DNA of 34,618 bases from Patulibacter medicamentivorans (GTDB lineage: Bacteria > Actinomycetota > Thermoleophilia > Solirubrobacterales > Solirubrobacteraceae). Positions within the stretch are counted from its first letter, which is position 1; the number at the start of each line of letters is the position of its first letter. Made by a program: the position numbers and the translations under genes. Positions 2,206-13,680 of this stretch are shown here, piece by piece. Under the pieces are notes generated by a model. It did not search any database, was not told the DNA's origin, and saw only the letters and a program-made list of their open reading frames with translations. Location: positions 1-34,618 of the forward strand of contig NZ_AGUD01000196.1 in NCBI RefSeq assembly GCF_000240225.1, read 5' to 3'.

Positions 2206-3823
<1,618 letters not shown>

Positions 3824-3922: not shown

Positions 3923-4828
3923 TCAACTCTCTGGCTCCTCGTCGTCCCTGGGCCGCACCCAGGCCCGCTGGCTGCCGGGGTCCTCGATCGGCGTGAAGAT
4001 CGGCGCCTCTGGGCCGTCGGCGAGCAGATCCTCCAGCAGGCAGCAGGAGACCAGCCCGGCCAGCCGGTCGCCCTCGAAGGAGCGCGCGAGCGCCAGCGCC
4101 CGGTGGCCGCGCCGCCGCAGCTGGCCCCGCGGGCGGTGCGCAAGCACGACCAGGACGTGCGGGAACACCGGAAAATGGCGCCGCCACAGCGGCTGCTCGC
4201 CGGGCGCCGCCTTCGCACCGCGATAGTCGAGCAGCCGCGAGTAGCGCACGAGCTTCTGCGCCAGCGCGTCCGTGGCCATCGTGCCGCGGTCCAGCTCGAT
4301 GAAGCGGTAGTCGACGGTCACCCGGCCAGCGGTCACGGTGGTGTAGGTGAGCACCGCGTCGGCGATCAGCAGCTCGCCCTTGCCGCGCTGCGCCCCGCCG
4401 CCGATCGGGTGCGCGATCTCATGCCGCCAGGCAAGCGGCGGGCAGTCATCGTCGTGCCGGCGCGCGTTGCGCACGAACGCCAGCCCGACATCGTTGACAG
4501 CCAGCGTGTGCTGCTGCAACGGACCGGCCGCCTGCTCACGACGCACGAGCTTGCGCCGCAGCTCCCCGCGGCTGGGGATCGTCTCGACGGCATCGGCGCC
4601 GCGCGCGGTGAGGAAGTGCAGCTTCTCGCCGCCGGGCCGCCGAACGCTCTCGGTCAACCCGGCCTGCTCGGTGTCGAAGAGCAGGCGCTGGCACCACCGC
4701 AGCGAGGTATCGGGCGTGTGCAGTTCATGCACCTGCGCGGTCGACAGCAGCCGGTGCTGGTACAAGCTCTCCAGGATCTCCACCGCCGTCGCGCTGAGCC
4801 TGCGCACCTGGGCCGCCGCGACCGTCAT
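3923..4828 (-). CDS. Replication-relaxation family protein
   Basis: This 301-residue protein matches the layout of the Replic_Relax family found on actinobacterial and firmicute mobile elements. An N-terminal winged-helix-like part contains VEILESLYQHRLLSTAQVHEL and QRLLFDTEQAGL. A central part contains QQHTLAVNDVGLAFV and a nuclease-like core with ADAVLTY, then FIELDRGTM. The family is thought to act in plasmid or element replication or DNA relaxation, but its biochemistry is poorly defined. The ATG at 4828 is chosen because the conserved part begins directly after it; further upstream the frame runs into repeat-rich non-coding DNA. It sits 99 bases upstream of the recombinase on the same strand and may be co-transcribed with it. 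Confidence 0.75.
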   Translation of the reverse strand: MTVAAAQVRRLSATAVEILESLYQHRLLSTAQVHELHTPDTSLRWCQRLLFDTEQAGLTESVRRPGGEKLHFLTARGADAVETIPSRGELRRKLVRREQAAGPLQQHTLAVNDVGLAFVRNARRHDDDCPPLAWRHEIAHPIGGGAQRGKGELLIADAVLTYTTVTAGRVTVDYRFIELDRGTMATDALAQKLVRYSRLLDYRGAKAAPGEQPLWRRHFPVFPHVLVVLAHRPRGQLRRRGHRALALARSFEGDRLAGLVSCCLLEDLLADGPEAPIFTPIEDPGSQRAWVRPRDDEEPES

Positions 4829-5334
4829 AGCCGCCCCCGACCTGGGAAGAGCGCAGGCGAGCGCGGTTCGCAGGGGGAGAGTTGTCGGTAGATAGATGTC
4901 GCCGCCGTCAACGGCGCGAACGAGCCGATGAACACGCGCCCTGGCGCAGATTGCGCCACGCCCGGCGACGAACACACGGGCGAACCGAACCGCGAACCGG
5001 GGATCGACCCACGGCGCGAACCGGAGAGCGAACAGCGCCGACCGTGCGGTTGGCGTTGAGTAACGTGGAGGTGCCTCATACCGCCTTCTCTGGCACGAGA
5101 AGCTGATCCGTTGTCGGACGGGTGTGCGGTGGTAGCGAGCGGCGTCGCTCGTACGCCTTGCGCTGTCGGTGCTGATGTCCCCTCGCACGCGCGCGATGGA
5201 GCGACGGCCTCACAGCGGCGCGTCGCAGACAGCGCCTGGACCGCCGCGCCCAGCAACCCGACGGCAAACCTGGACGGATCGGCCAGCGTCCGAGATAGAG
5301 TCGGGTCGCTCGTCACTTCAATCTTGGGAGCGGG
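4829..5334. other. Divergent intergenic region with GCGAAC repeats
   Basis: About 500 bases separate the replication-relaxation gene from the AriA-like gene, and no convincing gene is seen. GCGAAC occurs at 4916-4921, 4980-4985, 4992-4997, 5016-5021 and 5028-5033, its reverse complement at 4866-4871, and a variant ACGAAC at 4968-4973. The longer form ACGGCGCGAAC appears twice (4911 and 5011). The clustering next to a replication-associated gene suggests protein-binding sites such as an origin or operator. A weak -10-like TAGAGT at 5296-5301 could serve the downstream ATPase. Confidence 0.45.
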
Positions 5335-6696
5335 ATGCCGCAACTGACCTCCGTGGAGGTTGAGGGACTCCTCGGCCGGTTTGACCACGAGATTCAGTTC
5401 GACGCCGATTGGGACTTCGTGATCGTTCATGGCCCAAACGGAATCGGGAAGACAAAACTCCTCGAACTGGTCTACTCGCTGTGTGGAGGCCGGCTCCATC
5501 GCGTGTTTCGCCTGCCCTTCGATACCGCAGAGCTGAAATACGACGACGGGACGTCGCTGCGCGTAGTGAAGTCCGGCCAACAAGCGCTTCCCGGTATGGA
5601 GGAGGCGCCTGATCTTCCGCGCCTGCACATCGCGGTATCCGGGCCGCTCGGCGATATCGAATTCGATATGGGGCCGGAGGCGACGGTCCCCGAGTCGCGG
5701 CTGCGCATGATCGAGAGGGAGTTGCCTCTAGACAGAATTGGGCCGGAGCTCTGGTACGACTTCGAACTCGGCGACAACATCTCGCTACCCGAGGTAGTGC
5801 ACCGCTACGGAGGTATGTTTCCTGATGACTTCTTCGGTCGAATCCGCGGCTCTCTCCCAGAGCAGTATCAAGCCCTCGTCGACGCGAATCCCGTACATCT
5901 CATTGAGACACAGCGCCTGTTGGCGCCTCGGGTAGATCGCTCGGCGCAGGGGCGGCGAGCGCCCTCGCCGATGACCGTCGTCCGGTATTCCGCCGACATG
6001 AAAAGCCGGATTAGCGACGCTCTGGCGCGAAACTCAACCACGACCCAGCGTCTTGACCGCAGCTTCCCGAGGCGCGTCATGACCGCGCAAGATCCGGAGG
6101 TAACCGACGAGCAGATCCGCGACCGATACAGGGAGCAGGGCGCACTTCGGGACCGGCTTACGGCCGTGTCGCTGATCGACGCAGCTGAAGCCGACCTGCC
6201 GCTACCTGACCGCGAATTGGAGGCGTGGGAGCGCCGATTCCTGTGGATCTACCTTGAGGACACGGACGAAAAGCTGGCCACGTTCGTCCCTTTGCTACAG
6301 CGACTTCAGTTGTTCAGCGAGATCGTCAACGCGCGCTTTCTCTTCAAGGACCTGAGGATCGATCGAGAGCGCGGATTCCACTTTGTCACCGACGACCTCA
6401 AGGAGATCGGTCCGGCTTCTCTCTCGTCGGGTGAGCAGCATGAACTCGTACTTGCCTACGACCTGCTGTTCAACGTCTCGTCTGGGAGCCTCGTGCTCAT
6501 CGACGAGCCTGAGATATCGCTGCACGTTTCGTGGCAGCAGGAGTTTCTCAACGACCTAACCCGCGTATCGGAACTTCAGTCTCTCCGATTCATGATCGCC
6601 ACGCACTCCCCGCAGGTGATTCACAAATGGTGGCATAGAGCCAAGGCCTTGTACGACACCCCACCACACGGCCTTGAGCGGCCGACTGACGCCTGA
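5335..6696 (+). CDS. AriA-like ABC-type AAA ATPase (PARIS-type defence)
   Basis: The protein is 453 residues long. It has Walker A GPNGIGKT at residues 33-40, an ABC-type signature LSSGEQ at 363-368, Walker B SLVLIDEPE at 385-393 and an H-loop ATHSPQ near 422-427, the arrangement of OLD/RecF-like ATPases. The DUF4435 protein starts two bases after its stop. This ATPase plus DUF4435 pairing and size match PARIS, in which AriA forms a scaffold that holds AriB inactive until a phage anti-restriction protein is sensed. A GGGAG ribosome site lies six bases before ATG 5335. Codon use is less GC-biased than in the flanking genes, suggesting transfer. It could instead belong to a related ATPase/TOPRIM family; membership in PARIS itself is inferred from domain pairing. 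Confidence 0.8.
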   Translation: MPQLTSVEVEGLLGRFDHEIQFDADWDFVIVHGPNGIGKTKLLELVYSLCGGRLHRVFRLPFDTAELKYDDGTSLRVVKSGQQALPGMEEAPDLPRLHIAVSGPLGDIEFDMGPEATVPESRLRMIERELPLDRIGPELWYDFELGDNISLPEVVHRYGGMFPDDFFGRIRGSLPEQYQALVDANPVHLIETQRLLAPRVDRSAQGRRAPSPMTVVRYSADMKSRISDALARNSTTTQRLDRSFPRRVMTAQDPEVTDEQIRDRYREQGALRDRLTAVSLIDAAEADLPLPDRELEAWERRFLWIYLEDTDEKLATFVPLLQRLQLFSEIVNARFLFKDLRIDRERGFHFVTDDLKEIGPASLSSGEQHELVLAYDLLFNVSSGSLVLIDEPEISLHVSWQQEFLNDLTRVSELQSLRFMIATHSPQVIHKWWHRAKALYDTPPHGLERPTDA

Positions 6697-6698
6697 GC

Positions 6699-7550
6699 AT
6701 GCAGGGCATCCTCACCGGCCACGACCTCGCCAACTGGTTGAGCATGCTTCGATCGACCGATCGTCGGACGTTCGTCATCGTCGAGGGCCCGACGGACGCA
6801 CAGGCGCTCGACCCGCACATCAACGAGGCGCTCGCGGTCACGTTCCCGGCGCACGGGAAGGACAAGGCCGACGAGGCCATCAATCTGCTGGAGGCGCGGA
6901 GCTTCGGTCGCGTGCTCGCGGTTCTTGACCGCGACTGGGTCGGAATGCTCGACCAACCCTCAGCCGCGGCCAATGTCGTGTACACGGACGACTACGACCT
7001 CGACTCGACTGTCTTCTTCAGCGGGAGCGTCCTCGAGCGCGTGGTGACGGCTCATTCTGATCGTGACTCACGTCATGCACATCTCGCGCAGTGCGGAAGC
7101 TCGACCGTCGAAGCCATCGTGATCCGCCTCGCGGGCCCGATAGGCCTTGTGCGGTACTTCAGCGACCGCCACGGTCACGGCGTGAACTGCCAGCGATTTC
7201 CGGTTCACGCGGCGATGACCGCGAGCAAGGATGAACTTGACATCCCACTCCTCGCGCGGATCACGATCAGCCGATCAGGTGACGCCAAAGTCACTGCCGC
7301 AGTCGTCGAACGGCATGTGCAAACCGAGATGGCCAACCGCCCTGCGTTGCGCGACTTCTCGTGCGGGCACGACGTTGCGACTGCGGTCGCCGCGCTTCTC
7401 CGCCACTGGGGTACCTCGATGAGCCCTGATGCTGTGGAGGCCGCGGCGCGCGCCGCGTTCTCGTGTGCAGACCTCAAGACGACTGCCCTTCACCAGCGAG
7501 TCTCGGCTTGGTCCAATGCACATGCCGCCCCAATTTGGGCCTGTACGTGA
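6699..7550 (+). CDS. AriB-like DUF4435 (TOPRIM-type) effector
   Basis: This 283-residue protein begins two bases after the ATPase stop with no clear ribosome site of its own, so it is probably translationally coupled. TOPRIM-like acidic residues are in place: VIVEGPTDAQAL (Glu29, Asp33), VLAVLDRDW (Asp77, Asp79) and a following YTDDYDLDS. This order is typical of DUF4435 proteins. In characterised PARIS systems AriB is the nuclease toxin that cuts host tRNA after release from AriA; that role here is inference. The C-terminal half is helical (VATAVAALLRHW) with no recognised domain. Lower GC than the flanks matches its partner. Confidence 0.8.
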   Translation: MQGILTGHDLANWLSMLRSTDRRTFVIVEGPTDAQALDPHINEALAVTFPAHGKDKADEAINLLEARSFGRVLAVLDRDWVGMLDQPSAAANVVYTDDYDLDSTVFFSGSVLERVVTAHSDRDSRHAHLAQCGSSTVEAIVIRLAGPIGLVRYFSDRHGHGVNCQRFPVHAAMTASKDELDIPLLARITISRSGDAKVTAAVVERHVQTEMANRPALRDFSCGHDVATAVAALLRHWGTSMSPDAVEAAARAAFSCADLKTTALHQRVSAWSNAHAAPIWACT

Positions 7551-7640: not shown

Positions 7641-7696
7641 CCAGGGGTAGATCCGCGACTCCATCAATCCAGGGGTAGATCCAGGTCTCCGTCAAA
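7641..7696. repeat. Two tandem 28-bp repeats upstream of the broken regulator
   Basis: Units 7641-7668 and 7669-7696 share the first 14 bases exactly (CCAGGGGTAGATCC) and about 23 of 28 overall. They sit directly before the XRE-like remnant, where an autoregulatory operator would be expected. Confidence 0.6.
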
Positions 7697-7707
7697 CCCA
7701 GCCCGCC

Positions 7708-7935
7708 TCAGTCGGCGCGGTCGTTCGCAACCTGCGCAAGTAGGCCAACCTCAAGCAGGCAGAGCTGGACAACGGCGCCGCGCTGTCGCGCAACAGCATC
7801 GTCGAGATGGGGCCGGCCGGGTTGACCCGACGGTCAGCACTTTGTCTGCTGATCGCCGACCAGTTCGGGATGGCCTGCTCCGAGGTGCTCGCGCGCGTTG
7901 AGCGCGAGCGCGAGCAACCGTCGCGCCCCGGGCGC
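7708..7935 (+). pseudogene. Broken XRE-family helix-turn-helix regulator
   Basis: Reading the frame through a TAG at 7741-7743 gives a nearly complete XRE domain. VGAVVRNLRK lies before the stop. After it come ANLKQAELDNGAALSRNS, IVEM, and then LLIADQFGMACSEVLARVE, which matches the usual recognition-helix and terminal-helix pattern. The amber codon falls where a Gln or Glu codon is usual, a single-base change. No start codon is obvious upstream in frame. This is probably a decayed regulator of the downstream three-gene operon or of the neighbouring pair. A sequencing error or a readthrough codon is less likely but possible. Confidence 0.6.
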
Positions 7936-8034
7936 TGCGCTTGGCCGGCCCTGCCGTCGTGGTCGCCTGCCCCGGGTGATTCTGTGGAAGCTGGGGTGCA
8001 GGCGGTGCGGCGCTGGGCGGTGTTGCATACGCTC

Positions 8035-8934
8035 ATGCGTGTCATGTCACGCGGTGACCAGGCGCTCGACTTCGAGGGCAACGAGTGGGAGGAGTTCTGC
8101 CGGCAGGCGCTGAGTCGCAAGTTCGGCGCGGCGTGGCAGAAGATCCCTGCGAAGAACCGCGGCGACTGGGGACTCGAGGGGTTCGTCCGACAGCAGGGCA
8201 TCGTCGTGCAGTGCTACGCCGACGACTCGGTCTCAAACCAGGACCGCACGACCAAGCAGAAGGCCAAGCTGACCGCCGACGTGCCCAAGCTGCAGCGCAA
8301 CACCACGGTGTTGGAGGCGGTGCTCGACATGCAGGTCGACAGCTACGTCTTCCTCGTCCCGCGGTTCGACGACAAGGAGCTGCTTCCGCACGCCAAGACC
8401 AAGTCCGACCTCGCACGCGGCTGGGGCCTCCCGTGGATCGCGCCGTCGTTCGCGATCACCGTCAACGACATCGACTTCCTCAAAGAGGAGTGGGAGGCGC
8501 TTCGCGGCGCGATGCGCCCGGTCATCGAACTCGCGCCCGCTGCGGCGTTTGCGCCGAACGCGGCGCTGGTCGAGACGCTCGTCCGCAAGCTCGACGTGAT
8601 CCCGCGCCTCGCCGCGGATGCGGGGCGTGCCGACACCTGGCGGCAGATGCTGGTGCGCAACTACGTCGACGGCAACGGCATCCTGCTGCGCCTGGACGAG
8701 ATCAGCCCCGACTACCACGACCGCATCACCCGGATCGTCGCGGGCCGCGAGAAGCACCTCGCGCTGCGCACCGACGCCTCGGAGCCGCTCGACGATCTGA
8801 TGGAGCTGACCAGCTCGCTCGCGGAGGCGATCCACCGCGACATCTCGGCCATTGACGACGCCGACGTGCAGAGCATCGCGGGGAACATCGTCGCGGACTG
8901 GCTGATGCGCTGCCCCCTGGAGTACGCACCGTGA
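8035..8934 (+). CDS. Nuclease-like effector of a three-gene SMC defence operon
   Basis: Counting from ATG 8035 the protein has 299 residues. The N-terminal part has FEGNEWEEFCRQAL (Glu14 and Glu19 among its acidic residues), IPAKNRGDWGLEGF (Asp44) and GIVVQCYA (residues 55-62). This spacing resembles a restriction-endonuclease-like fold, though the usual lysine of the E/Q-x-K motif is replaced by QCY. The rest is helical with no recognised domain. Its stop overlaps the next gene by 4 bp. The frame is open upstream, but that part is the remnant of an XRE regulator, so ATG 8035 or 8044 is preferred; no good ribosome site decides between them. Position and partners suggest the effector subunit of a Lamassu/ABC-three-component-like system. 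Confidence 0.6.
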   Translation: MRVMSRGDQALDFEGNEWEEFCRQALSRKFGAAWQKIPAKNRGDWGLEGFVRQQGIVVQCYADDSVSNQDRTTKQKAKLTADVPKLQRNTTVLEAVLDMQVDSYVFLVPRFDDKELLPHAKTKSDLARGWGLPWIAPSFAITVNDIDFLKEEWEALRGAMRPVIELAPAAAFAPNAALVETLVRKLDVIPRLAADAGRADTWRQMLVRNYVDGNGILLRLDEISPDYHDRITRIVAGREKHLALRTDASEPLDDLMELTSSLAEAIHRDISAIDDADVQSIAGNIVADWLMRCPLEYAP

Positions 8935-9383
8935 GCACCCCCGACACCGGACGTCTGATCTTCACTCCCCGGCCGGCACCGGTGTCGCCGCGCCTGCGCC
9001 CGGCACACCGCGTCGCGCTGCTGCTGGAAATGATCGACAAGTGCCACGGCGCAAAGGCCACGCTGCTGCAGTTGCACGCCATCGACACCGCCCTGGCCGA
9101 TCCCGACGCGCGTCGCCGACTCGCCGGCGACGACTCCCGCGACGTGGCGCTGTCGGCCGTCCGGGTCGACCCGGCGCTCAACCGCGCCGTCGACCGCGCG
9201 ATCGGTGAAGGCCTGCTGTCGATGAACACCAACGCGACGGTCGAGCTCACCCCCGCGGGGCGCAACGCGCTGGAAGCCGTCCGCGGCGCAGACATCCTGC
9301 GCGCAGAGCGCGCCGCCCTCGCCGAGATCCCCGGGAAGATCACCCGGGGCAAGGCCCGGGCGGCGGCGGGGGCCCGCCCGTGA
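8931..9383 (+). CDS. Small middle component, winged-helix-like
   Basis: This 150-residue protein is translated from a GTG that overlaps the preceding stop (GTGA), and its own stop overlaps the SMC gene in the same way. It begins with a Pro-rich stretch. The predicted core, HRVALLLEMIDKC to VDRAIGEGLLSMNTNATVEL, ends in a beta-hairpin-like wing followed by TPAGRNALEAV, as in winged-helix domains. A basic tail (KITRGKARAAAGARP) follows. Size and position between a nuclease-like gene and an SMC gene match the middle component of ABC-three-component systems and LmuC of Lamassu. Assignment is by context and fold pattern only. Confidence 0.6.
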   Translation: MSTPDTGRLIFTPRPAPVSPRLRPAHRVALLLEMIDKCHGAKATLLQLHAIDTALADPDARRRLAGDDSRDVALSAVRVDPALNRAVDRAIGEGLLSMNTNATVELTPAGRNALEAVRGADILRAERAALAEIPGKITRGKARAAAGARP

Positions 9384-11395
9384 GCCTTCGCCTGCGCGCG
9401 CTGCGGCTGGTCGCGCACACCGAGGACGGGGCCTTCGGGCGCGATCTGCGCTTCGGCGACGGCCTGATCGTCCTGCGCGCCGAGAACTCGATGGGCAAGA
9501 CCACCGCGATCAACTCGATCCTCTACGCGATGGGGATGGAGGGGCTGATCACCGAGCGCCACGCGGTGCCCCTAACGGCGGCGATGACCCAGCAGCTGCA
9601 GGCCCCCGACGGCCGGGTGCTCAACGTCAGCGAGTCGGTGGTGTCCCTGCAGATCGAGAACGACCGCGGGCAGGTCGCCACGCTGGAGCGCTACGCCAAA
9701 CGGCAGACGGGGGACACGCGGACGATCCGCGCCTGGGATGCGCCGCGTCTGACCGCGCCAACACCCGACGACACCTTCCGCGACATGCTCGCCCGCGTCC
9801 AGGGGTCGGGCGTCGGGCAGATGGCGATCGGGCAGTGGCTGGAGCAGTTCATCGGCTGGGAGCTGCCGGTGATCGTGATGCCCGACGGCACCGAGCGGCG
9901 CCTGTACCCGGAGCTGATCATGGCCCTGATGTTCGTCGAGCAGCGAGGCGGCTGGGGCGGCATCCAAGCGGCGATGCCGACCTACGGCATCCCCGACGTG
10001 CGCAAGCGCGCCCGCGAGTACATCCTCGGCCTGACCGTCTACGAACGCCAGCGTCGCCGGCTGGAGCTGCGCCGCGCACTGGAGGAGCTGAAGCGCGACT
10101 GGACCGCGACGGTGCGCGCCGCGGAGTCCCAGCTGGGGGCAGTGGGCATCCGGCTGCAAGCTCCGGCCGACATCGACCCCGACTTCGGCGCCGACTCGCC
10201 GCTGCAAGCCTTCGACCTGCGCTCCTCGCGACCGCTCCCCGAGGAACTCTCCTCGGTCCGCAACGAGCTCGCGCAGCTCTCGGACGCGGCGGACACCGAC
10301 CGCAGCGACGCGACGCTGTCCATCGATGAGGCCCGCTTGCGAACCCTGGAGTCTCAGCTTCAGAACGCGATGTTCGACGTGCGTCAGCGCGAACGCGACC
10401 TGCAGCGCCTCCGTCGCGAGCAGGCCGACCTCGCCGAGCAGACCGACCGCCTCGACGAGGACCTCGTCCGCAACAAGGACGCTCAGCGCCTACAGGGATT
10501 CGGCGGCGAGCCCTGGACCGACGACGATCGCGACTGCCCAACCTGTCATCAGGTGCTACCGCCCACGCTGTTGGGGACCCTGGACCGCCCGACGATGACC
10601 GTCGAGCAGAACATCGCCTACATCGAGCAGCAGAAGGAGGTGGTCCGCGCCGCGCAGGACCGCGCCGCCGCGGAGATCCAGCGGACCTTCGAGGTGCAGA
10701 CCGCCGCACGGCAGGCGATCGCCGACACGCGCGCGGAGGTACGCGCGCTCCGCGACGCCCTCGTCCGGGCCCGCGGGGTGCCGTCGGCGGCCGACGTTCA
10801 GCGCCGCTTGAACCTCGAGCGGCGCATTGAGAGCCTAGCCGCGGCGGAGATCGAGCTTGGGGTGCTGCGCGACACCCTGACAGACGTCGCCGCGCGCGCC
10901 GCCGCCAACCGCGCCGAGATGACCGCGCTGCCCTCGGCCACGTTCACGCCGGCGGACGAGGCCCGCATCGCCCGCCTTCAGGAGGTCTTTCTCGACCAGC
11001 TGGGCTTCTACCACCCGGAGTCCCTGCCGCTGGGCGACCTCGAGATCTCGCGTGACAGCTACCTGCCGGCGGCCGGCAATGTCGACCTCGGCTTTCAGAT
11101 CTCCGCCAGCGATGGCATCCGGCTGATTTGGGCCTACCTGCTCGGGCTGCTCGAGACGTCGCGCACAGTCGCGACGCCGCACCCCGGACTGCTGATCTTC
11201 GATGAGCCCAGGCAGCAGTCGGCCAAGGAACGCAGCCTCGAGATGCTCCTTCAGCGTGCCGCCCGCGCCCGGGAGTACGGCGAGCAGGTGCTGTTCGCGA
11301 CCAGCGAGCCGCGCGCGAACCTCGACGCGATGCTCGCCGACATCGATGTGCAGTACGAGCCGATTGACGGGCGCCTGCTCATCCCGCGCAACTGA
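9380..11395 (+). CDS. Rad50/SMC-like ATPase with zinc hook
   Basis: The 671-residue protein has a split ATPase head. Walker A is AENSMGKTT at residues 34-42, with Ala in place of the first Gly of the P-loop. Walker B is LLIFDEP at 604-610, preceded by a degenerate signature (SASDGIRL) and followed by FATSEP where an H-loop His would be. The middle is long helix, with a CPTC zinc hook at residues 386-389 between charged coiled-coil arms, as in Rad50. Such proteins sense or tether DNA ends and dimerise through the hook. It is coupled to the upstream genes by a 4-bp overlap and is the likely sensor or motor of the operon. The altered P-loop and missing His suggest unusual ATP handling. Confidence 0.85.
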   Translation: MSLRLRALRLVAHTEDGAFGRDLRFGDGLIVLRAENSMGKTTAINSILYAMGMEGLITERHAVPLTAAMTQQLQAPDGRVLNVSESVVSLQIENDRGQVATLERYAKRQTGDTRTIRAWDAPRLTAPTPDDTFRDMLARVQGSGVGQMAIGQWLEQFIGWELPVIVMPDGTERRLYPELIMALMFVEQRGGWGGIQAAMPTYGIPDVRKRAREYILGLTVYERQRRRLELRRALEELKRDWTATVRAAESQLGAVGIRLQAPADIDPDFGADSPLQAFDLRSSRPLPEELSSVRNELAQLSDAADTDRSDATLSIDEARLRTLESQLQNAMFDVRQRERDLQRLRREQADLAEQTDRLDEDLVRNKDAQRLQGFGGEPWTDDDRDCPTCHQVLPPTLLGTLDRPTMTVEQNIAYIEQQKEVVRAAQDRAAAEIQRTFEVQTAARQAIADTRAEVRALRDALVRARGVPSAADVQRRLNLERRIESLAAAEIELGVLRDTLTDVAARAAANRAEMTALPSATFTPADEARIARLQEVFLDQLGFYHPESLPLGDLEISRDSYLPAAGNVDLGFQISASDGIRLIWAYLLGLLETSRTVATPHPGLLIFDEPRQQSAKERSLEMLLQRAARAREYGEQVLFATSEPRANLDAMLADIDVQYEPIDGRLLIPRN

Positions 11396-11759
11396 GCGCG
11401 CGCGGCGTGGGCCACGGGCTGATCGGCTCGCGTGGCTCTGTGTCGGCGCACACGTTGAGTGCCGCGGTCGGCGCGTCCGTGCCCAGTTGGACCGACGCAC
11501 GGCTGTCGTAGAGGTCGTTGAGCGTCGATGACTGCGGCGCCGGCGTTCACTGCCAGCGCCGCGGCGTCGCCGGTGTCGGGGGACGCCGCGGGGTGCTCTA
11601 CGCTTCCCTGAGCGCCACAGCCCAGGCGCCTCCTCCGAGCCGGTGTGCCCCACGCGCACAGGTGCCGGTGACGACGAGCAAGAGCTTCGCTCCGGGTGCA
11701 GGACCTTCCATTCCTCAGGGCTGGAGGGCGTGGGACTCCGGCAAGAAACGAGGACTGAG
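11396..11759. other. Intergenic region with terminator-like inverted repeat
   Basis: No gene is supported here. A perfect 10-bp inverted repeat (CCGCGGCGTC at 11559-11568, GACGCCGCGG at 11582-11591) with a 13-base loop could end transcription of the SMC operon. No promoter is convincing for the following gene. Confidence 0.4.
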
Positions 11760-12269
11760 ATGAATCACCGGAGCAGGAAGCAGGACGTGCGTCGCATCGC
11801 GTCGCGGGACGGCCTGAGCTACACCACGGCGCTGCGCACGCTCGAGGCTCAGGAGCGGCTGCTCGCTGGCCTCGAGGAGATGCTCAAGCGGCTGAGAGAT
11901 TTCCTGAACGAGCGGCCGCTGCACCGCCTGTGGCTGGTGCACGGCTTCGAGGAGGGCGACATCACGCTCGTCGACATCGACCAGGTGCCGCTCGGCGGCG
12001 GCGGGCGGCACGGCGTGCAGATGACGCTGATGCAGCCGGTGGTCTGGGAGGTCCTGCCGAAGGTCATCCCGGCCCGGGCCAGCGACGTCCCGTCGACCAA
12101 GGAGGTCGACAACCTCAAGCTGTTGCTGACCAACTACATCGACAGTGGCGAGCTCGGCAACGCGCGCGTGGCCGAGTGGCGCGTGGAGCGCGACGAGAGC
12201 GAGGTGCCCAGCGCGGGCACCGCGCGCGACGCGCAGTGGACGGTCACGTTGACGGTTGTGCCCGAGTAG
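11760..12269 (+). CDS. Hypothetical island protein
   Basis: This is 169 residues from ATG 11760, which has GAGG about seven bases upstream. The N-terminus (RKQDVRRIASRDGLSYTTAL) is Lys/Arg-rich and reads like a short helix-turn-helix segment often seen at the start of actinobacterial mobile-element proteins. A helical stretch (LEAQERLLAGLEEMLKRL) follows. The remainder alternates hydrophobic residues as in beta strands (WLVHGFEEGDITLVDI, QWTVTLTVVPE). There is no signal peptide or membrane segment. I do not recognise the family. It converges on the HEPN-like gene and lies downstream of the SMC operon, so it may be an accessory part of the island. Confidence 0.65.
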   Translation: MNHRSRKQDVRRIASRDGLSYTTALRTLEAQERLLAGLEEMLKRLRDFLNERPLHRLWLVHGFEEGDITLVDIDQVPLGGGGRHGVQMTLMQPVVWEVLPKVIPARASDVPSTKEVDNLKLLLTNYIDSGELGNARVAEWRVERDESEVPSAGTARDAQWTVTLTVVPE

Positions 12270-12388: not shown

Positions 12389-13537
12389 TTATTTGACGGC
12401 GGACTGAGGCGCACGTATCGCCGCGCCGTTGCGCTGACCCATCGAGCCGGCATAGTCTGCTGATCGCGTCGGGTAGGCCGCTGTCGCGGCCCCCGTGGCG
12501 GCGCGGCGGCGCGCCTTGGCGATCGGTCCGAAGTCGCGCATGAGGGTGGCGTCGGTCATCTCGTGCGTCGATGCGCGCAGGCCGACGGGGCCGTCGAACG
12601 TCTCGGCTAGCGCGATGATGACCATCAGCACGCGGACGGCGTTCTCGCGTGTGCCGAAGCCGCCGGTGACGCCGTGCAGGATGGTATGGCGGTTGAGGCC
12701 GGGGTCGTCTGGGGCGGTGGTCGCGAAGCCGCGCTTGGCGAAGATCTCGGCGTCGATGACCTTCAGCGCGGGGTAGGTGACCATGCCGACGATGAGGTCG
12801 TCGGGGGTGCCCTCCTGGTCGGAGTCCAGTAGCTGCTCGAGCCGCCGGCCGACGCGCATGTTCTCGAGCACGCCGGACTTCTCGGCGATGACGCCCTCGA
12901 TGATCGGCAGCAGGGTGGAGACGGATGCGTGCCAGCGCTCGTCCTCCATGCAGTCGAGCGCCTCCGCCAGCTGGTCCTTCCAGCGTGCCAGCGACGGGGA
13001 CGCCAACAGGCCCTCACAGATCCACGTCCATGCCGCAGAGGCCGGGGCGACGGAGTCGACGCTGCGGCGCAGGTCGTGCGGGGCGTGGGCCTCGACCTGC
13101 TCGAGGACGTCGCGCAGGAAGGTCGCGTCCAGCGGCCGGTAGATCCCGGCGCGCGCGTAGAAGTCGCCGATCTCGCGGGCGACCATCATGACGTCCAGGC
13201 CGTCGAAGACGCGCTGGCCGGCAGGGCTCTCGGCCCACGTCCGGACGCGCTCGGCGCTCTGGTCGAGCGCGAGCTGCGCGGACTGCGCGAACTGGTGGAT
13301 CTCGGCCGCGGTCTTGAGGACCGACTTGCCCTGCGGGGTCTCCGACCAGCGCTCGTAGCTGTCGGCAAACGCGCGCGCCCTGTTCTTGGCCCGCTCTACG
13401 AACCCGATCATCGTCTGCAGCGCGGGCGTCAGCGCGCCAGCGAGATTGTCGGTACGCAATGCGGACTCCTCCAGAGATGACTCGGGCTCGTCGGCCTGTT
13501 CGTCGATGGGCATTGCCTCCAGGGTAGGCACCGACAT
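12389..13537 (-). CDS. Protein with HEPN-like R-x4-H motif
   Basis: From ATG 13537 the protein has 382 residues; ATG 13513 (374 residues), with GGAGG very close to it, is an alternative start. The N-terminal third is helical with two similar segments, RWSETPQGKSV and TWAESPAGQRV. The middle is mostly helical. Near the C-terminus LNRHTILHGV contains Arg283 and His288, fitting the R-[polar]-x3-H signature of HEPN ribonucleases, followed by a conserved-looking GFGTRENAVRVLMVI helix. HEPN proteins are frequent toxins and abortive-infection effectors, so a defence role is plausible. It is the last gene before the right attachment repeat and runs convergent to the 11760 gene. Function is inferred from this motif and context only. 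Confidence 0.65.
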   Translation of the reverse strand: MSVPTLEAMPIDEQADEPESSLEESALRTDNLAGALTPALQTMIGFVERAKNRARAFADSYERWSETPQGKSVLKTAAEIHQFAQSAQLALDQSAERVRTWAESPAGQRVFDGLDVMMVAREIGDFYARAGIYRPLDATFLRDVLEQVEAHAPHDLRRSVDSVAPASAAWTWICEGLLASPSLARWKDQLAEALDCMEDERWHASVSTLLPIIEGVIAEKSGVLENMRVGRRLEQLLDSDQEGTPDDLIVGMVTYPALKVIDAEIFAKRGFATTAPDDPGLNRHTILHGVTGGFGTRENAVRVLMVIIALAETFDGPVGLRASTHEMTDATLMRDFGPIAKARRRAATGAATAAYPTRSADYAGSMGQRNGAAIRAPQSAVK

Positions 13538-13680
13538 CCGGTCATTCGGACACCGGCAAGTGATGCAGTCGGCGGGGCGCCCGTGGGTTGCGTCCCGGTC
13601 GGAGCGCCGCCCAACCGCAACCACGCTTCCCCCGGCCTCGCCTCCATGATCCCAGTCACGCCGGCTTCAGCTTTGCGCGA

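Follow-up and report, generated by a model that had tools for sequence, protein, structure and literature searches.

A probable type II Lamassu operon of Patulibacter medicamentivorans, from a distinct and mostly unnamed branch

What function may be ascribed to three tightly packed genes, ending with that of a Rad50-like ATPase, in the actinobacterium Patulibacter medicamentivorans? The locus lies on a stretch of 34,618 nucleotides (contig NZ_AGUD01000196.1, positions 1 to 34,618, forward strand), and by the window we mean the whole of that stretch. The three plus-strand genes, taken from the list of open reading frames (ORFs), follow one another in the Lamassu-like order LmuA-LmuC-LmuB and are joined by 4-bp overlaps, at 8931-8934 for LmuA/LmuC and at 9380-9383 for LmuC/LmuB. 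An earlier note, drawn from the letters of the sequence, had reported these overlaps correctly and had suggested a Lamassu or ABC-three component (ABC-3C) defence system, perhaps of an undescribed subtype. We argue here that the locus is very probably an intact type II three-gene Lamassu (ABC-3C) defence operon, and that it belongs to a branch which is distinct within Lamassu, with a residue signature of its own and mostly without a name, as judged by profiles and public annotation.

Three proteins and their family

The assignment is carried by the PADLOC models. LmuA, the effector (8035-8934, plus strand, 299 aa), matches the LmuA model PDLC03852 with E values of about 5.4e-21 to 5.6e-21 over residues 8-289. 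LmuC, a small winged-helix adaptor (8931-9383, plus strand, 150 aa, GTG start), matches the LmuC model PDLC03871 at 7.1e-12, and LmuB, the Rad50- and SMC (structural maintenance of chromosomes)-like ATPase sensor (9380-11395, plus strand, 671 aa, GTG start), matches the LmuB model PDLC03863 at 3.8e-87, its residues 1-669 covering model positions 1-608 of 610. As all three proteins match Lamassu models, we are dealing with Lamassu/ABC-3C, a known kind of system, and the earlier call was sound in this respect. Pfam and NCBIfam gave no match for LmuA or LmuC at E <= 1, and LmuB obtained a weak AAA_23 match in Pfam and no specific name from either library; no ABC-three component model matched in the NCBIfam scan of the operon proteins, a library that presumably contains such models, to go by NCBI names. 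The likeness to type II Lamassu (LmuABC, DdmABC or ABC-three component) extends to the gene set and its order, to an LmuB with a short coiled coil and a zinc hook, to the small LmuC and to the effector LmuA; a type II Lamassu system, according to a passage of PMC8565338, protected E. coli against phage.

The left edge of the operon needs a correction. It had been placed at 7708, where there is no start codon and shortly after which an in-frame TAG stands at 7741-7743. The open frame of LmuA reaches upstream to 7807, while the portion common to its relatives begins at about 8035 or 8044; we provisionally take 8035, near which the relatives also start, as the start, and count LmuA residues from it. 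If translation does begin there, the number given earlier to Asp44 is right; that of Asp608 in LmuB is right in any case.

Relatives of this operon are widespread and sparse. Of 396 genomes of the window's phylum, 2 carry LmuB, one of them the window's own; it was also detected in 24 of 72,556 plasmid records, in 246 of 386 pattern matches of a genome collection and in 27 of 52 of a viral collection, and 50,697 phage records yielded none. The 117 loci compared below comprise the window's own, 1 from the phylum, 8 from plasmids, 80 from the genome collection and 27 from the viral one; since the genome loci are the best 80 of 246, the sample is weighted towards close relatives, and it contains some near-copies (106 LmuA, 108 LmuC and 111 LmuB are distinct). 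They come from one archaeon, many bacterial phyla, plasmids and viral contigs. The same-strand order LmuA-LmuC-LmuB recurs in 115 of the 117, the two remaining loci (L058, L097) running into a contig edge before LmuA, so that the arrangement is more than chance; no swap of effector was seen among the 115 loci with an LmuA. A candidate LmuC start stands exactly 4 bp inside LmuA at 33 of 115 junctions, and a candidate LmuB start exactly 4 bp inside LmuC at 61 of 115. Where members of this branch were scanned, the window included, the PADLOC models recovered 35 of 36 LmuA (of 115), 35 of 36 LmuC (of 117) and 10 of 10 LmuB together with 5 more (of 117).

The second protein had been described as small and winged-helix-like, and its structure model agrees (pLDDT, the predicted local distance difference test, of 89.6, with the elements in winged-helix order). 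Most of the matches that Foldseek listed for it in the PDB are winged-helix proteins, MarR-like ones among them, and the list includes a chain of the Salmonella LmuACB complex, none being significant; that chain, 9hqu chain D, had the top model-normalised TM (template modelling) score, 0.48, among the 50 matches listed, at an E value of at least 0.53. A PDB sequence search with the LmuC profile of the branch gave weak winged-helix and ribosomal L23 matches.

It might be asked whether such genes form instead a housekeeping DNA repair operon of the Rad50/SbcC type, provided with a nuclease of its own. The ABC heads, the coiled coil and the CPxC hook are common to both, and the weak AAA_23 match would agree with this. 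The PDB sequence search with the LmuB profile of the branch also brought up Rad50/SMC heads, AriA and coiled coils, the best being Rad50 heads at E 0.0009 or weaker, and in a midpoint-rooted tree the branch falls nearer to four rows taken for Rad50-like than to the LmuB of the best-known Lamassu group, whose effector carries the motif QCK (henceforth the QCK group). Against this, LmuB of the branch differs from Rad50/SbcC in lacking the H-loop His and the first Gly of the P-loop, and the partners found in 115 of 117 loci are LmuA and LmuC, not Mre11/SbcD. Its distribution is patchy in the phylum, as the counts above indicate, and includes plasmids and viral contigs, its best LmuB model is a Lamassu one, and the window operon stands behind an AriA-like gene, near a serine recombinase. 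The flanks of the relatives (142 nearest ORFs, from 79 of the 80 genome relatives) matched 331 PADLOC families at 1e-10, as compared with 11 in control stretches (122 ORFs in 20 other stretches, all from the window's phylum; 128 ORFs had been chosen and six long ones dropped for size), a comparison that counts families and not ORFs, one ORF being able to match many families. Being richer than the controls in matches to defence models, these flanks speak against a housekeeping context, the very setting that was to have overturned the earlier proposal. On patchiness and context we reject the repair operon, which we regard as very improbable.

A branch beside the QCK group

If the operon is of the Lamassu kind, is it then an ordinary member of the QCK group, with a QCK effector and a degenerate Walker B, and nothing special? 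The resemblance is real, in that the group (found, for example, on Azotobacter, Leptolyngbya and Streptomyces plasmids) shares the design of the operon and the same three best PADLOC models. The LmuB profiles align as well: hhalign of branch against QCK LmuB gives E 4.8e-20 with a probability of 99.3, profiles made from seven QCK systems match 108 of 117 branch LmuB at E < 1e-3, and the branch LmuB profile finds, weakly (5.5e-5), the LmuB of the QCK operon L152. Measured with the same LmuA/LmuC/LmuB models, however, L152, whose LmuB frame is intact, scores 348/158/568 bits and the window 74/44/291. In the phylum itself the PADLOC LmuA model is matched at about 1e-104 by three other genomes, and the two LmuA inspected among them are QCK. 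The branch further departs from the QCK group in its P-loop, in its Walker B, where Glu is retained and the seven QCK LmuB have Ser (six) or Thr (one), and in its nuclease lysine, while the LmuA and LmuC profiles of the two groups are blind to each other. Ordinary membership is thus, in our judgement, improbable.

The tree of LmuB tells a similar story. It comprises 53 LmuB-like rows, of which 37 belong to the branch; these cluster together (94/99, not starred), and next to them falls L185, a very long row. Because the branches are long and the root was set at the midpoint, the exact place of the group is unsure.

The same distance must also be counted against our placing of the operon within Lamassu, together with other results that weigh in the same direction. 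At E < 1e-3, the profiles from seven QCK systems match none of the 115 LmuA and none of the 117 LmuC of the branch, the branch profiles in turn miss LmuA and LmuC of the QCK group, hhalign of the two LmuC profiles reaches a probability of just 0.6 %, and in the LmuB tree, with its midpoint root and long branches, the branch is separate from the QCK group. A PDB sequence search with the three branch profiles found no chain named Lamassu, and no match at E <= 0.001 came from Foldseek of LmuC against the PDB, or of LmuA against the PDB and a viral library. With the solved Lamassu complexes (9hqu, Salmonella LmuACB; 9ny5 and 9ny1, LmuABC/LmuA; 9ux7, LmuAB-DNA) the sequence searches made no link and the fold matches are insignificant, chains of 9ux7, 9ny5 and 9ny1 appearing in the PDB list of LmuA at E values of at least 0.53. 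Finally, we know of no member of the branch that has been tested in the laboratory.

Public names differ as well. In the QCK group NCBI calls LmuA 'ABC-three component system protein' and LmuC 'middle component 2', and LmuB hypothetical, ATP-binding or AAA; in the records examined from the window's branch LmuA is hypothetical, LmuC is hypothetical save for one serine/threonine protein kinase, LmuB is hypothetical or an AAA family ATPase, and some records are unannotated. LmuB being named generically on both sides, the difference in naming concerns LmuA and LmuC. Because the PADLOC models match LmuA and LmuC of the branch, their seed alignments probably mix both groups, in which case PADLOC's Lamassu set would already include the branch, though not under a separate name. 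We may therefore keep one half of the 'undescribed subtype' proposed earlier: the kind is known, since PADLOC catches all three proteins, and the branch stands apart from the group which those models fit best. The sequence variants then thought unusual, namely QCY, CPxC, a P-loop without its first Gly and a missing H-loop His, turn out to be the rule across the branch loci.

Two further searches complete this comparison. The PADLOC LmuB models PDLC00262 and PDLC03860 matched no genome of the phylum at 1e-20, an absence without meaning because no control genome was matched either, and a single-protein search with a QCK LmuB gave no viral locus.

Effector and sensor residues

LmuA carries the elements FEGNEWEEFC and GDWGLEGF, and has QCY at the usual place of the nuclease lysine (QxK), all as first noticed. 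Its predicted active-site stretch (8164-8289, plus strand) holds Asp44 of GDWG, Gln59-Cys60-Tyr61, Lys78, Asp82 and Lys85. Asp44 is kept in 113 of 115 rows, Gln59, Asp82 and Lys85 in all 115 and Lys78 in 114; Tyr61 is found in 113, Phe replacing it in the other 2. Towards the C-terminus, the motif WLMRCPL (8899-8919, plus strand) is also conserved, with Trp289 in 112 and Cys293 in 113 of 115 rows. The window LmuA has only 22-34 % identity with 35 aligned relatives, and that Asp44, Gln59, Lys78, Asp82 and Lys85 are kept despite this fits an active centre.

Where Lamassu effectors are nucleases, their fold is of the Cap4 or PD-(D/E)XK type, and Lamassu with different effectors are also known. 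LmuA of this branch might be a dead or non-nuclease protein of PD-(D/E)XK-like fold, binding DNA or another target, with defence exerted by sequestration or some other activity. The lysine of QxK is gone, as just seen, the helix residue Glu19 is Glu in 89 of 115 rows and Gln in 24, and there is no significant fold match. The structure model (pLDDT 86.8) nevertheless has its elements in an order fitting that expected of a PD-(D/E)XK core (H15-33, E34-36, E49-51, E56-60, H68-88, E101-107, then a helical C-terminal half). Absence of a nuclease fold had been named as what would refute the first reading; the element order is there, and the fold matches are all below significance. In the viral library rows 1, 3 and 4 of the Foldseek list are restriction endonucleases, with probabilities of 0.99-1.00, but E 0.03-0.06 and TM-scores of at most 0.30; a PDB sequence search with the branch LmuA profile brought unrelated helical proteins. 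The near-invariance of the five residues at such low identity speaks against a dead protein, as does hhalign, which aligns branch with QCK LmuA (E 2.4e-5, probability 75.5), Asp upon Asp and Gln upon Gln, with Tyr opposite Lys. We consider the dead or non-nuclease LmuA rather unlikely. For LmuA as a PD-(D/E)XK nuclease, Asp44 and Gln59 would act with a relocated lysine, which conservation suggests would have shifted from the QxK place to the next helix, as Lys78 or Lys85.

In LmuB the motifs AENSMGKTT, CPTC, FDEP and FATSEP are all present, and with them the hook, the P-loop without its first Gly and the altered H-loop that had been described. Counting rows, of 117, that have the column in question, the P-loop ENSMGKTT (9482-9505, plus strand) retains Asn36 in 116 of 117 and Gly39 and Lys40 in all 117, while both Cys of the zinc hook (CPTC, 10535-10546, plus strand) are kept in 116 of 116. 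SASDGIR (11102-11122, plus strand) probably occupies the position of the ABC signature, where, as we take it, LSGGQ would stand, and its Ser577 and Asp578 are invariant in 114 of 114 rows. ATSE (11297-11308, plus strand) replaces the H-loop His, whose place was set by eye; Thr641 and Ser642 are each kept in 110 of 114 rows, Ser standing where His would be.

The Walker B motif DEPRQ (11201-11215, plus strand) has Asp608 and the catalytic Glu609 in 114 of 114 rows with that column. The genome scan used three patterns, one of them on Walker B, so that this sampling favours Glu; the viral scan did without that pattern, and Glu is nevertheless found in 24 of 24 readable viral rows (of 27). A passage of PMC10586767 describes Lamassu LmuB as a Rad50-like protein that frequently has a zinc hook and, as a general rule, a Glu-to-Gln change in Walker B. 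Such a replacement, general and not defining for Lamassu, was not found in the branch. The 12 Lamassu LmuB used for comparison (L152, L171-L179, L181 and L185) all lack Glu after the Asp: besides the seven of the QCK group, L177 and L178 carry Gln at this position, and Ser stands there in L179, L181 and L185. L180 and L182-L184, matches of PDLC03859, were judged Rad50-like by eye and omitted from this count; three have Asp-Asp and one Asp-Glu.

How might the three proteins act together? From the Lamassu literature, and by homology, we infer for the window operon a sequence of sensing, release and DNA cutting. A dimer of LmuB, joined through the CPTC zinc hook, would watch for foreign or abnormal DNA, such as ends, hairpins or the intermediates of phage or plasmid replication; a passage of PMC12904381 suggests DNA ends or hairpins as the triggers of Lamassu. 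The winged-helix adaptor LmuC would keep LmuA inactive on LmuB. Upon recognition LmuA would be released, oligomerise and cut DNA, and the infection would be halted, probably at the cost of the cell; a passage of PMC12409362 describes LmuA as set free upon activation and assembling into a tetramer. Because the Walker B glutamate is retained, LmuB of the branch may be able to turn over ATP and reset, which would set it apart from the 12 others sampled. We put forward, tentatively, the possibility that the branch constitutes a Lamassu type of its own, with a fixed effector, a relocated nuclease lysine and a sensor that hydrolyses ATP and resets, so that sensing could be reversible. For the Lamassu of V. 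cholerae a one-way trigger has reportedly been proposed.

Rad50-based sensing of DNA breaks has a bacterial relative in Lamassu, and a sensor branch that retains the catalytic Glu offers a natural comparison for asking whether Lamassu can dispense with ATP hydrolysis. The nuclease proposed for the same branch would be a test of how a PD-(D/E)XK enzyme can do without the usual lysine. All this concerns a widespread, probable defence lineage which is still mostly 'hypothetical protein' in the public records examined.

Damaged copies and genomic surroundings

Some copies in the branch are altered. LmuA is split over two overlapping frames in L012 and L024, LmuB is broken in L114-L116, and in Azospirillum ramasamyi (L008) an IS5-like element (2773-3578) separates LmuA from a shortened LmuC. 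On a Roseibium plasmid (L004) and an Agrobacterium plasmid (L006) the operon comes after repC, a recombinase and a gene of the RHE_PE00001 family, perhaps a shared plasmid defence spot. Of 5426 complete E. coli genomes, 32 contain DNA 60-80 % similar to part of the LmuB gene of a Citrobacter (L090), none covering 80 % of that gene, and all eight of the E. coli matches listed are annotated hypothetical protein.

In the window, a tRNA-Asp gene (2206-2279) lies upstream of the operon, and the listed frame of a large serine recombinase (2225-3823, minus strand) ends within it; no duplicate of the tRNA-Asp end turned up elsewhere in the window. A replication-relaxation protein follows (3923-5188, minus strand). 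Directly upstream of the operon, at 5335-7550 on the plus strand, are an AAA ATPase, matching PADLOC AriA at 2e-21 with PtuA models close behind and solved AriA chains at 4.9e-14, and a gene of 283 aa without Pfam or PADLOC match, whose only hit is PHROG 20954 (function unassigned) at 3.6e-8. By eye the latter resembles a TOPRIM/DUF4435 protein, and the two genes are possibly a divergent PARIS-like pair.

The stretch preceding LmuA (7651-7908, plus strand) looks by eye like an XRE regulator carrying an in-frame stop. We did not retain this remnant (about 7690-7905): its pieces have no Pfam family, and relatives gave nothing better than E 0.5. Downstream of the operon, the genes at 11643-12269 (plus strand) and 12389-13624 (minus strand) have no convincing match in Pfam, PADLOC, NCBIfam or PHROGs. 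Between 20162 and 29326, MlaD domains were recognised in three of the scanned plus-strand genes, which recalls the Mce operons of actinobacteria.

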